From: Actinomycetota bacterium
GTDB lineage: Bacteria; Actinomycetota; Geothermincolia; Geothermincolales; RBG-13-55-18
DNA length: 64,000 nt
Reading direction: 5' to 3'
Assembly: GCA_014360655.1 (NCBI GenBank)
Contig: JACIXC010000005.1
Span: 124,001-188,000, forward strand
Part shown: piece by piece, positions 3,519-40,938 of the stretch
Numbering within the stretch: position 1 is the stretch's first letter
How the letters are laid out: each line of letters starts with the position of its first letter
Notes under the pieces: model-generated
Told to the model about the DNA's origin: nothing
Database searches by the model: none
The model's input: only the letters and a program-made list of their open reading frames with translations
Made by a program: the position numbers and the translations under genes

Positions 3519-4559
3519 ATGATACGGACCAAGTTAACGGACATGCTGGGCACAAGGTATCCCGTGATCCAGGCGGGCATGGGGCCCTGGAATACCGATA
3601 AGCTGTGCATAGCTGCCGCCAACGCCGGCGCCCTGGGTATCATCAGCACCGTCGGCATCGGCTACTTCTGGTCAAAGCCCGCGGAGGACATGCCGAAAAG
3701 CCCGTACGATTACCTGCGCAGGGTGATCTCCCAGGTGGGCGAGGCCACGGCGGAGAAGAAGGGCGTCTTCGGGTGCAACATCCCCCTCGCCATGGAATTC
3801 AGGGAGATGGTGGAGGGGTTGATCAGGGCTACGGGAGACGCGCGCAAGGAGGACCCGGACATCGCGGAGCGCCTCAAGGTCATCATCACCTCGGCCGGCA
3901 ACCCTACCCCCTGGACCGAGACCATCAAGGAGACGGGGTGCTACTGGTTCCACGTGGCCCCTTCCGTGTACCACGCCCAGAAGGCGGAAAAGGCCGGGGC
4001 CGACGTCATAATCGCCTCGGGGCGCGAGGGTGGAGGCCACGTCGCCTTCGAGCCCATCCACACCATGGTGCTCCTCCCCGCGGTGATCAAGGCGGTGAAC
4101 GTGCCGGTAGTGGGAGCGGGAGGATTCGCCGACGGCGCCGGCCTGGTGGCGGCCCTCGCCCTGGGTGCCATCGGGGTGCAGATGGGAACGCGCTTCATAG
4201 CCACCAAGGAGAGCGATTTCCACGACCTTTGGAAGAACAAGGTGGTGGAGAGCTCGGAGATGGACACCCTGGTAGGGATCTCCATCTTCGGGCCGGCGCG
4301 TTACCTGAAGAACACGGTTTCTGTCAGGCTGCACGAGCTCCTCAAGGAGGGCTTCGAGCAGGGCTACGACGAGGGCGTCATGCTGGAGACCAAGGGCATC
4401 GTCCTCTCCATGGAAGGCGGGGACCCCGAATGGTCCATCTACTTCGGCGGGGAGGTCGCCGGCAGGATCGACAGCATCATCAGCGTGGAGGAACTCCTGC
4501 AGGGCATCGAGGAACAAGCGGAGGCCATCATAAGAGACCTGCAGGTGACCCTCGGCTGA
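3519..4559 (+). CDS. nitronate monooxygenase / 2-nitropropane dioxygenase family flavoprotein
   Basis: An FMN-dependent TIM-barrel enzyme of 346 residues. Family signatures are visible in order: the N-terminal VIQAGMG substrate/FMN loop (about residue 15), GREGGGHV (about 170, matching the conserved AGGH phosphate-binding segment), GAGGFADG (about 200) and GVQMGTRF (about 220). The family includes nitroalkane-oxidising enzymes and FabK-type enoyl-ACP reductases, so the substrate is uncertain. An upstream in-frame ATG at 3399 would add 40 residues. I chose ATG 3519 because it follows a purine-rich site (AAGGGGACGG), starts the conserved barrel and lies downstream of a TATAAT. The 24-bp repeat array begins after the stop. 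Confidence 0.85.
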   Translation: MIRTKLTDMLGTRYPVIQAGMGPWNTDKLCIAAANAGALGIISTVGIGYFWSKPAEDMPKSPYDYLRRVISQVGEATAEKKGVFGCNIPLAMEFREMVEGLIRATGDARKEDPDIAERLKVIITSAGNPTPWTETIKETGCYWFHVAPSVYHAQKAEKAGADVIIASGREGGGHVAFEPIHTMVLLPAVIKAVNVPVVGAGGFADGAGLVAALALGAIGVQMGTRFIATKESDFHDLWKNKVVESSEMDTLVGISIFGPARYLKNTVSVRLHELLKEGFEQGYDEGVMLETKGIVLSMEGGDPEWSIYFGGEVAGRIDSIISVEELLQGIEEQAEAIIRDLQVTLG

Positions 4560-4608
4560 GCGGCGGGTCTCTAACCGGGAACGCCCCCCCGTGGCGTACC
4601 CTTTCCGG

Positions 4609-4690
4609 GAGGAGATTGCTTCGTCGGCGCTGGCGCGCCTCCTCGCAATGACAGGAAACCGGGCGCTTTGCGCCTTCTCGCGATGACGTT
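4609..4690. repeat. two inverted REP-type elements at the left edge of the array
   Basis: Read on the minus strand, 4609-4652 carries the element 'TGTCATTGCGAGGAGG ... GACGAAGCAATCTCC', a repeat type common in many bacterial genomes. A shorter relative with GCGCAAAGCGC-like symmetry follows at about 4662-4690. Both point opposite to the array and to the complete copy at its right end (5485-5524). The 24-bp array therefore sits between inverted REP-type elements. Confidence 0.7.
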
Positions 4691-4716
4691 CTTGGAACAC
4701 GCCTCCTCGCTGAAAC

Positions 4717-5524
4717 GTCATCGCGAGGGACCTCCGTAAGGTCATCGCGAGGGACCTCCGTAACGCCATCGCGAGGGACCTCCGTAAGGTCATCGCGAGG
4801 GACCTTTGAAACGTCATCGCGAGGGACCTCCGTAAGGTCATCGCGAGGGCCTTCTGAAACGTCATCGCGAGGGACCTCCGTAACGTCATCGCGAGGGACC
4901 TCCGTAACGTCATCGCGAGGGACCTCCGTAAGGTCATCGCGAGGGCCTTCCGTAAGGTCATCCCGAGGGACCTTTGAAACGTCATCGCGAGGGACCTCCG
5001 TAAGGTCATCCCGAGGGACTTTTGTAACGTCATCGCGAGGGACCTCTATAAGGTCATCGCGAGGGCCTCCCGTAAGGTCATCGCGAGGGACTTTTGAAAC
5101 GTCATCGCGAGGGACCTCCGTAAGGTCATCGCGAGGGACCTTTGAAACGTCATCGCGAGGGACCTTTGAAACGTCATCGCGAGGGACCTCTATAAGGTCA
5201 TCGCGAGGGCCTCCCGTAAGGTCATCGCGAGGGACCTTTGAAACGTCATCGCGAGGGACCTCCGTAAGGTCATCGCGAGGGACCTTTGAAACGTCATCGC
5301 GAGGGACCTCCGTAACGTCATCCCGAGGGACTTTTGAAACGTCATCGCGAGGGCCTCCCGTAAGGTCATCGCGAGGGACCTCTATAAGGTCATCGCGAGG
5401 GACTTTTGAAACGTCATCGCGAGGGACCTCCGTAAGGTCATCGCGAGGGACCTCCGTAACGTCATCGCGAGGGACCTCCGTAACGTCATCGCGAGGAGCG
5501 GAGCGACGAAGCGATCTCCTCCGG
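4717..5524. repeat. 33-unit tandem array of a 24-bp repeat ending in a full REP-type element
   Basis: Thirty-three units start at exact 24-bp steps from 4717 to 5485 with no insertion or deletion. Each unit is GTCATCGCGAGG followed by a variable 12-mer of the form GACCTCCGTAAG, GACCTTTGAAAC, GCCTCCCGTAAG or GACCTCTATAAG. The first 12 bases are the head of the flanking REP-type repeat, and the last unit continues into its tail (GACGAAGCGATCTCC). A six-unit (144-bp) block recurs, for example starting at 5041 and 5185, showing higher-order duplication. Because 24 is divisible by three, the minus strand stays open with an 8-residue period (MTLRRSLA). I regard that as a by-product. There are no spacers, so this is not a CRISPR. 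Confidence 0.95.
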
Positions 5525-5576
5525 ACCTTGCCGCCTCTCCCGTTCCCCGTGCCTGTTATAATTTAAGCTTGGGAGA

Positions 5577-5651
5577 GCCGGTGTAGCTCAATGGTAGAGC
5601 GTCCGCCTTGTAAGCGGTTGGTTGGAGGTTCGATTCCTCTCACCGGCTCCA
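5577..5651 (+). tRNA. tRNA-Thr (anticodon TGT)
   Basis: A cloverleaf can be drawn: acceptor GCCGGTG/CACCGGC, D-stem GCTC/GAGC, anticodon loop CTTGTAA (anticodon TGT, reading ACA) closed by CCGC/GCGG, T-stem GGAGG/CCTCT with loop TTCGATT, discriminator T and an encoded CCA. The 27-43 pair is a T-T mismatch. A TATAAT at 5557-5562 just upstream is a likely -10. The remaining 216 bp to the next gene show nothing recognisable. Confidence 0.95.
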
Positions 5652-5867
5652 CTTCCTCACCCCATGGCAGGTCGTCTGCCACCCTCCAGGGAAACCGGTG
5701 CCAGGCAGTAAAACCAGGCGGTGCAACCGGGGTTCCCGCCATTGCCTCGAGCATCCGCACCTTCGAAAGCCGGTGGCCAGGCAGGAAAACCGGGTAGCGC
5801 AACGGCACGGCCGCAAAGGCAGGGTGAAACGGGTGGGGTTTTCGTCTCCGGAGGCGCGCATCCGGGA

Positions 5868-7166: not shown

Positions 7167-8683
7167 GCGGGCGGCTCCTCCTCGCTTTTTCCCACAAATT
7201 TCCAGCGCTGTCCCTCGCGCAGGTCATCCACGCGGATGCCCATCTCCCTCAGGCGCGAGCGTATGAAGTCCGCGGTCTCGTACTGTTTCCTGTCGCGCGC
7301 CATCGCCCTCACCTCGAGGAGCAACTCCACCAGTCTCTGCGGCGAGGGCATGCCCTCACCGCCCTTCGCGCCGGCCTCCGGCCCCACCTCTTCGCATTCT
7401 TCCTCCCCCTCCTCGCGCTGCTGGAAGAGCCCCAGGACGCGGCACAGCTTGAGCAGCAGGTCCCTTCCCAGGCTGGCGACGATGGGGGCCGCCGGGGTGG
7501 GAAAGCGCTCCTGCTCGCCCAGGTAGGCGTTGAGCTCCTTGACCAGCTCGAAGATGACGGCCAGCGCCCGCGCCGTGTTGAAATCGTCATCCATGGCCTC
7601 CTCGAAGCGCCGCTCGAAGTCGAAGAAGGAATCGGAGAGCTCCACCTCCCTCTGGGTGCGCGCGGGCGCGGCCCGCTGGGAGGGGCGGGCCAGGAACTCG
7701 TCCAGCGCGAAGCGGCAGTTCTCCAGGCGCTCGTAGGCCTTCCGCGCCTCCTCCAGCGCTTCCGGCCCGAAATCGATGGGGCTGCGATAGTGGGTCTGCA
7801 GCGCCAGCATCCTCACCACGTCCGCCTCGTACTTCTTCAATATCTCCCGTACCAGGATGATATTGCCCAGCGACTTCGACATCTTCTCCTCGCGTATGTT
7901 GACGAAGCCGTTGTGCACCCAGTAGCGGACGAAGGGCTCCCTGCCGGTATAGGCCTCCGCCTGGGCGATCTCGTTCTCGTGGTGGGGGAAGATGAGGTCC
8001 TGTCCCCCGCCGTGGATGTCGAAGCCCATGCCCAGGAACTGGAGGGACATGGCGGAGCACTCGATGTGCCATCCGGGGCGGCCCTTTCCCCAGGGCGAAT
8101 CCCAGGCCGGTTCCCCTTCCCGGGAGGACTTCCACAGCGCGAAATCCATGGGATGACGCTTGCGCTCGTCCACCTCCACGCGCTCACCGGCGCGCATCTC
8201 GTCGAGGGAGCGTCCGGATAACTTACCATATCCTGGAAACTTCTCCACGCTGAAATACACGTCGCCGTCCACCGCGTAGGCGAAGCCCCTGTCCACCAGG
8301 CCTCCTATCATCTCCAGCATGCGCGGGATGGTCTCCGTTGCGCGGGGGGTCACGTCGGGAGGCATCACCCCCAGGGCTCGCATGTCCTCGAGAAAGGCCC
8401 GCTCGTAGAAGCGCGCCACCTCCTCCGGCGTCTTCCCTTCCTCTCGCGCGCGGTTGATGATCTTGTCGTCGACGTCGGTGAAGTTCTGCACGTATAACAC
8501 CCGGTAGCCCTTGTAGAGGAGGTACCTCCGTATGACGTCGAACACCAGGTAGGCGCGCCCGTTCCCCACGTGTATGTAGTTGTAAACGGTGGGCCCGCAG
8601 ACGTACATGCCCACCTTGCCCTCCTCGCGGGGGACGAATTCTTCCTTTCTACGGGTGATGGTGTTGTAGATCATCAAGGTCAT
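7163..8683 (-). CDS. cysS: cysteinyl-tRNA synthetase
   Basis: A class I synthetase that charges tRNA-Cys. The N-terminal [13 protein letters not shown] (residues 29-41) contains a zinc-ligand cysteine and the HIGH-type motif [13 protein letters not shown] near residue 205 and [14 protein letters not shown] (about 220-235) supply the other zinc ligands, and [10 protein letters not shown] lies near residue 266. It has 506 residues against about 465 for most bacterial CysRS; the excess is a charged, glutamate-rich insertion (about residues 410-450) before the C-terminal anticodon-binding part. It overlaps rlmB downstream and lies 18 bp after cysE. The cysE-cysS pairing links cysteine synthesis to its use. 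Confidence 0.96.
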
Positions 8684-40136: not shown

Positions 40137-40880
40137 GTGTCCGGGGGTCGGGCGAGCGACATCGCAAGCGGCCTCCGCATTTCCACTCCACCGAGGCCGG
40201 GAACGACCGGGTCGGTCGCAGCAAGCCTCTACTGAACCACCACACAGGCCGGGACCGGGGGTCGGGCGAGCGACATCGCAAGCGGCCTCCGGACAAGGAA
40301 GGTATATGATAAACCCTTGCATGGATGGAGCCCCTGAATGAAAAGGGGGAACCATCGTGAGGCCGCGCGTCGCGGAGCGAGCACGAGCCCCGGCCCAGCC
40401 TCCTTATACGCACCCAACCAGCCCGGGGAACTACAGGGTCGGTCGCAGCAAGCCTCTACTGAACCACCACACAGGCCGGGACCGGGGGTCGGGCGAGCGA
40501 CATCGCAAGCGGCCTCCGGACAAGGAAGGTATATGATAAACCCTTGCATGGATGGAGCCCCTGAATGAAAAGGGGGAACCATCGTGAGGCCGCGCGTCGC
40601 GGAGCGAGCACGAGCCCCGGCCCGGCCTCCTTATACGCACCCAACCAGCCCGGGGAACTACAGGGTCGGTCGCAGCAAGCCTCTACTGAACCACCACACA
40701 GGCCGGGACCGGGGGTCGGGCGAGCGACATCGCAAGCGGCCTCCGGACAAGGAAGGTATATGATAAACCCTTGCATGGATGGAGCCCCTGAATGAAAAGG
40801 GGGAACCATCGTGAGGCCGCGCGTCGCGGAGCGAGCACGAGCCCCGGCCCGGTCTCCTTATACGCACCCGACCAAGGCCG
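40137..40880. repeat. 227-bp tandem repeat, about three copies plus a left fragment
   Basis: Copies start at 40211, 40438 and 40665. The first two are nearly identical (a single A/G difference seen near 40395/40622), and the third diverges near 40870. A fragment of the unit (CGGGGGTCGGGCGAGCGACA onward) also lies at about 40140-40177. The unit contains an ATGAAAAGGGGGAACCAT stretch with matching CCCCTTTTC-like complement and a TATATGATAAA. Open frames exist on both strands in every copy because the sequence is GC-rich; none resembles a protein family. The block fills the space between the clpC stop and the nucleotidyltransferase pair. Confidence 0.93.
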
Positions 40881-40938
40881 GGAAGCCATGCGGACTGGGG
40901 AACGTGATCCCACCCCACCCGTGACCGGGGGCCAGGCA

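Follow-up and report, generated by a model that had tools for sequence, protein, structure and literature searches.

The window (the whole stretch of 64,000 nt that was analyzed) contains a tandem array of 32 units of 24 bp (positions 4717 to 5484, plus strand), located between a gene of the nitronate monooxygenase family (PF03060; 3399 to 4559, plus strand) and a tRNA-Thr(tgt) gene (5577 to 5651, plus strand; TATAAT at 5557). The true start of the nitronate monooxygenase family gene is probably later than 3399, because close relatives match from about residue 31. Each unit of the array is composed of a tag arm, GTCATCGCGAGG (the head), and a 12-bp linker. The array ends in element B (5485 to 5522, plus strand), a complete CGTC-tagged element (C = base 5484) with outer arms ATCGC/GCGAT, and the tRNA gene starts 54 bp past it. 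To the left of the array lies a flank (4691 to 4716, plus strand) whose final six bases, TGAAAC, are those that end the D- and K-type linkers; farther left are an inverted partial tag arm (4674 to 4690; GTCATCGCGAGA on the minus strand) and element A (4608 to 4652, minus strand), a complete inverted TGTC-tagged REP with the stem ATTGC/GCAAT and the inner stem GGCGC/GCGCC. The far end of element A and positions 5504 to 5522 form a 19-bp inverted repeat.

We counted 33 heads, from 4717 to 5485, and all 32 steps between them were exactly 24 bp; the 33rd head, after the 32 tandem units, is the opening of element B. The head was exact in 29 of the 33 cases and had one mismatch in the other four. 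Heads within one mismatch numbered 35 in the window, against a mean of 0.91 in shuffled sequences (largest value, 4), and TRF described the array with a period of 24, 32.6 copies, and a score of 1070. The 32 units represent 12 unit types, with 8 of 12 variable columns in the linker vs. 2 of 12 in the head, and TCGCGA occurs 29 times among them. A sequence-only reading of this DNA had described the unit as the first 12 bp of a REP-type element plus a variable 12-mer, repeated 33 times at an exact 24-bp step, with TCGCGA in most units, a complete element at the right end, and inverted copies at the left; this anatomy was borne out, the 33 repeats being 32 full units and the head of element B. 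The same reading had proposed that a six-unit block was itself duplicated, which did not exceed chance: unit similarity at a lag of six was not above that of shuffled orders (fraction 0.14), and 264 of 500 shuffles of the units gave an exact repeat at least as long as the longest one observed (73 bp). Units 14 to 18 and 20 to 24 differ by one base in total. Adjacent units shared 20.10 of 24 positions vs. 20.81 when shuffled (0.9976 of the shuffles were at or above the observed value), so that neighboring units were, if anything, less alike than under shuffled order. The imperfect heads were those of units 3, 11, 13, and 26, with no clear gradient. The first linker matched the left flank poorly, and only D and K linkers matched it. 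Elsewhere in the window (40199 to 40882), a 227-bp unit is present in three tandem copies with 98% matches.

Two of the six reading frames are without stop across all 32 units, and an ORF of 453 aa (3672 to 5033, minus strand), with repeats of LRRSLAMT, starts in the array and extends across the upstream gene on the opposite strand. An array coding for a protein of 8-residue repeats would agree with these open frames; nevertheless, this is exceedingly improbable, since 24 is a multiple of 3 and any stop-free unit gives open frames, the variable columns 16 to 21 are contiguous and without a third-position pattern, and the 453-aa ORF is antisense to a conserved gene. This ORF is probably spurious, and ORFs like it could be annotated as proteins. 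A CRISPR array was also rejected: the linkers themselves repeat (12 types in 32 units), and no CRISPR-family match from Rfam was found in the array, the one sub-threshold match being outside it (7508 to 7537).

The sister species (G001) has one degenerate hairpin and no array at the orthologous site; the interval that separates the gene alignment from the tRNA-side alignment measures 143 bp there and 988 bp here. This bears on the proposal that the repeated heads are selected binding sites of a regulator or architectural protein, for example, shaping tRNA-Thr expression. The heads of the window array are less variable than the linkers, and the tRNA-Thr gene begins close to element B, as binding sites there would predict; against them, the same site lacks the array in the sister species, no promoter or terminator consensus was found in 4500 to 5700, no RNA family other than the tRNA was found by Rfam between 4560 and 5700, and the 24-bp step is not helically phased, 24 bp not being a whole number of helical turns. 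We consider such selected sites improbable. Selection for phase, which the sequence-only reading had suggested, was not supported: a single step is usual in arrays of this kind (32 of 50 arrays with at least three units kept one step), and the lack of helical phasing applies here too.

The two complete elements were compared with the CGTC-tagged REP superfamily of Di Nocera, De Gregorio and Rocco (2013), which includes the dRS3 repeats of Neisseria and RPE-4 and RPE-6 of Rickettsia (PMC3733652). A CGTC, TGTC, or CCTC tag at one end, as in the definition given in that paper, is present in both elements (B, ACGTCATCGC; A, CTGTCATTGC), as is the complementary AT at stem positions 1 and 2 (ATTGC/GCAAT and ATCGC/GCGAT). 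In place of a stem of 8 to 9 bp with a loop of 4 to 5 nt, element A has a 5-bp outer stem, an internal loop, and a separate inner stem, and the lowest-energy RNA fold of element B pairs GAGGAG with CTCCTC instead. The unpaired CCA-like 3′ tail is replaced by CTC(C) in both. As to a transposase, the genome had no match to PF01797 (Y1_Tnp, RAYT), the sole family searched, and hence no RAYT gene flanked by REPs, the arrangement of a RAYT-mobilized REP (REPtron). Judged by its tag and AT stem, the element appears to fit the CGTC superfamily and none of its four described families.

The 12-mer head had 84 exact copies in the 2.97-Mb genome vs. 4 for the reversed control. Heads were searched in 20 stretches of the genome, where both kinds of element recurred: type A, with a TGTC tag and the stem ATTGC/GCAAT, and type B, with a CGTC tag and the arms ATCGC/GCGAT. 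The two often form inverted pairs with a similar spacer. Extra partial copies were found beside both types, mostly 24 to 27 bp apart for B and approximately 35 to 38 bp apart for A. Among the 73 complete elements of these 20 stretches and the window locus, 45 had an extra tag arm upstream and none had an extra closing arm downstream. Near-identical paralogous clusters (core identity, 0.96 to 1.0) formed four sets; partial units varied in number within three of them (3, 1, 1, 1; 1, 2, 2; and 3, 0, 3, 4) and were missing from the fourth (0, 0, 0). Together with the sister site without an array, these differences fit the copy-by-copy amplification that the sequence-only reading had suggested. A second large array was observed at L016 (G000:C7:92400-93700, minus strand), where approximately two dozen alternating units of 24, 25, and 37 bp sit in a higher-order repeat of roughly 86 to 147 bp. 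At L019 and L026 (G000:C8 and C19), whole A-B clusters recur within a few hundred bases, and the number of partial units varies per copy.

REP clusters are also located at contig ends (G000:C1:1-342 and the end of G000:C22), where they are the probable cause of the breaks in the assembly. An assembly artefact as the origin of the window array would be in keeping with such contig ends, with a genome in 35 contigs, and with the unavailability of reads. It is nonetheless very unlikely, because no exact repeat within the array exceeds 73 bp, the order of units is not periodic, and arrays of the same design are present in a complete chromosome (NZ_CP038159.1).

Among relatives, 3 of the 31 class genomes had two-head tandems (gap 11 to 14), and 5 of 396 in the phylum sample had three-head tandems (gap 5 to 35). 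One genome of the same phylum and another family (G265; 1.3 Mb) had 13 three-head matches, many of them with T-rich linkers.

A scan of bacteria with one genome per species returned at least 118 stretches, holding 119 distinct arrays (of 121) with 2 to 14 partial units each; the window array, with 32 partial units, is longer than all 119. By the titles of 80 listed loci, the arrays occur in at least 14 phyla: Pseudomonadota, Campylobacterota, Spirochaetota, Bacillota, Bacteroidota, Chloroflexota, Omnitrophota, Gemmatimonadota, Fibrobacterota, Nitrospirota, Acidobacteriota (Aminicenantes), Atribacterota, Latescibacterota, and Eremiobacterota. The 3′ end was a complete element with an exact 5-bp closing arm in 97 of the 119 listed arrays and one with a single stem mismatch in 14 more. 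The remaining 8 had no closing element (L089, L113, L163, L176, L177, L188, L200, and L202), several of them being cut by a contig end or Ns. A closing arm of its own was found inside only 3 of 364 partial units. In the terminal elements, once 14 arrays that lacked the motif and 3 that had a different head were set aside, a head with T was matched by A in 92 of 93 cases and a head with C by G in all 9; the stem is maintained through compensating change. The same tandem design, with variant heads, was present in three stretches of viral contigs: in L352 (GTCATTCC) it leads into an element closed by GGAAT, in L353 (GTCATCCT) into one whose closing arm, AGGAC, has a single mismatch, and in L354 the stretch is too short to show the closing element.

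Only the tag-bearing arm is multiplied, and on the tag side of a complete element, here and in distant bacteria. This one-sided rule had escaped the sequence-only reading, whose half-REP unit and amplification stand and whose selection for phase does not. In 50 array-bearing genomes, tag-arm triplets were found in all 50 (190 overlapping) and closing-arm triplets in none, using a closing-arm pattern that recognizes 67 of 69 single closing arms. These genomes were hand-picked, one locus each among the 80, for having tag-arm arrays, and the selection-free evidence is therefore that of this genome, the class survey, and the viral contigs. The class survey, which used a broad gap, gave 4 closing-arm triplet matches, spread over 3 of the 31 genomes, and this genome had none. 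Two of these three genomes were assessed (G001 and G014; the third is G020), and neither match was a one-arm REP array: the match at G001:C45 (L349/L351) belongs to an irregular, GC-rich minisatellite that carries GCGGCAATC motifs and, over the stretch read, lacks any complete REP element, and that of G014, judged from the printed text, contains a whole element. Among the viral contigs of IMG/VR, the tag-arm scan gave 11 stretches (7 distinct arrays by eye), each of two closing-arm variants gave none, and at least 120 stretches had complete elements.

The growth of the arrays was analyzed in the 80 listed loci (hairpin-midpoint, unit-length, first flank, and step tests) and, in later flank, gradient, and covariation tests, in all 118 stretches. 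In the 72 of 119 distinct arrays that were kept, the left flank resembled the first linker over the last 8 nt (4.18 matches vs. 2.13 at shifted places of the same locus, P = 8e-12), and the likeness was also found in a 46-array version with a shuffle control. The latter dropped 37 of 83 arrays for a contig edge, a duplicate linker, or a degenerate head upstream, and the 72-array version used a similar rule. This likeness between first linker and flank means that the units take in left-flank sequence. Imperfect heads in these other genomes were distal to the element, with a mean position of 0.19 vs. 0.46 ± 0.10 (9 of 5000; 14 informative arrays, ascertainment-corrected). This test replaced a crude comparison of first and last imperfect heads (24 vs. 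0), which was biased because the search pattern demands three perfect heads. The unit adjacent to the element was more like the element at positions 12 to 20 in 42 arrays vs. 22, with 54 ties (P = 0.017). Distal worn units, an element-like adjacent unit, and flank-derived linkers fit repeated local duplication beside an intact element. Unit length tracked element length (rho = 0.57). A breakpoint in the hairpin loop was rejected, as shared length did not follow the hairpin midpoint (rho = 0.03, P = 0.80, 69 elements).

The window array is a real minisatellite grown from one REP arm. As in the mycobacterial MIRU-VNTR and other minisatellites, an interspersed repeat has been expanded to a variable tandem array; unlike them, the unit is half a palindrome and is followed by the intact palindrome. 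The explanation that we favor, and hold to be reasonably probable, is that a CGTC-tagged REP hairpin seeded the minisatellite, which then grew by repeated tandem duplication beside the intact element. The duplicated stretch would comprise approximately 12 bp to the left of the element and the first 12 bp of the element (tag and 5′ arm), and duplications would have recurred beside the intact element until 32 units preceded it. Each step may have been a re-copying event (template slippage or nick-and-extend) triggered by the folded element, with the tag setting its direction, and the array would be tolerated, rather than used, by the cell. Plain slippage leaves the polarity unexplained, and simple unit-by-unit slippage is contradicted by the neighboring units of the window array, which are less alike than shuffled ones. 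Because this array also shows no evident gradient, later rearrangement inside it is likely.

Alternatively, a protein recognizing the tag end might nick or re-copy there; it could be a RAYT-like HUH enzyme or some other transposase or integrase. The arrays would then be what abortive rounds left behind, with one tag arm added next to the intact element each time. Such a protein would account for the polarity, the intact 3′ element, the flank-derived linkers, and the worn distal units, and PMC6006769 describes a 5′ tetranucleotide guide in GTAG-tagged REPs that is needed for cleavage by TnpAREP. Conversely, PF01797, the only family searched, was absent from this genome (0 matches) and from 18 of 50 array-bearing genomes, and CGTC REPs are not associated with transposase genes according to PMC3733652. 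We regard enzymatic nicking of this kind as unlikely. Of the 31 class genomes, 23 had PF01797, and the sister species G001 had it as well; its presence in 32 of 50 array-bearing vs. 5 of 14 control genomes gave no clear association. A RAYT as the necessary driver at this locus was ruled out, the genome itself lacking PF01797. A general form of the proposal, that across bacteria an orientation-sensing enzyme works on CGTC-type palindromes at their tag end and leaves one tag arm per round, is slightly more doubtful still. In each round the enzyme would open the tag strand a few bases upstream, and the intact hairpin would be rejoined after a short stretch had been re-copied.

The elements resemble the CGTC REPs characterized in PMC3733652 in their CGTC/TGTC tag, the complementary AT that opens the stem, their extragenic location, and their inverted pairs; they differ in a longer, two-part stem, in a tail that reads CTC instead of CCA, and in the tandem arrays, which repeat the tag arm only. 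In the same paper, head-tail dimers of CGTC REPs are negligible, clusters are rare, no transposase is linked to them, and whether such REPs still form is left open. GTAG-tagged REPs, REPINs, and BIMEs with their RAYTs are likewise small tagged palindromes occurring in inverted pairs (PMC3116915 and PMC6006769), and tandem repeats of whole REPINs with flanks are described in PMC3116915. In these systems, whole elements or doublets repeat with their flanks, whereas here one arm repeats in a genome without a RAYT gene. The neisserial intergenic mosaic elements (dRS3 plus RS repeats) are also large intergenic arrays built on a CGTC REP, and a filamentous phage uses dRS3 as its integration target (PMC3898611); the dRS3 copies there accompany RS elements of 30 to 160 bp, whereas the arrays here are of one arm. 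No description of tandem arrays of one REP arm was found, by sequence strings and terms, among the matches listed in the literature searched.

The window array is ordinary in being without demonstrated function and unusual in belonging to a one-sided pattern of distant bacteria. One-sided arrays in distant phyla suggest that something distinguishes the two ends of CGTC REPs, and the pattern hints at a copying process able to tell one end of a repeat from the other. If an orientation-sensing enzyme were at work, the arrays would record the missing mobilizing activity of the superfamily, as fossils and perhaps also as traces of present activity. The arrays provide a countable footprint of which genomes gain arrays, on which side, and beside which enzymes, and the 32-unit array of the window, being the longest when set against the 119 sampled, is a good locus for strain and long-read studies.
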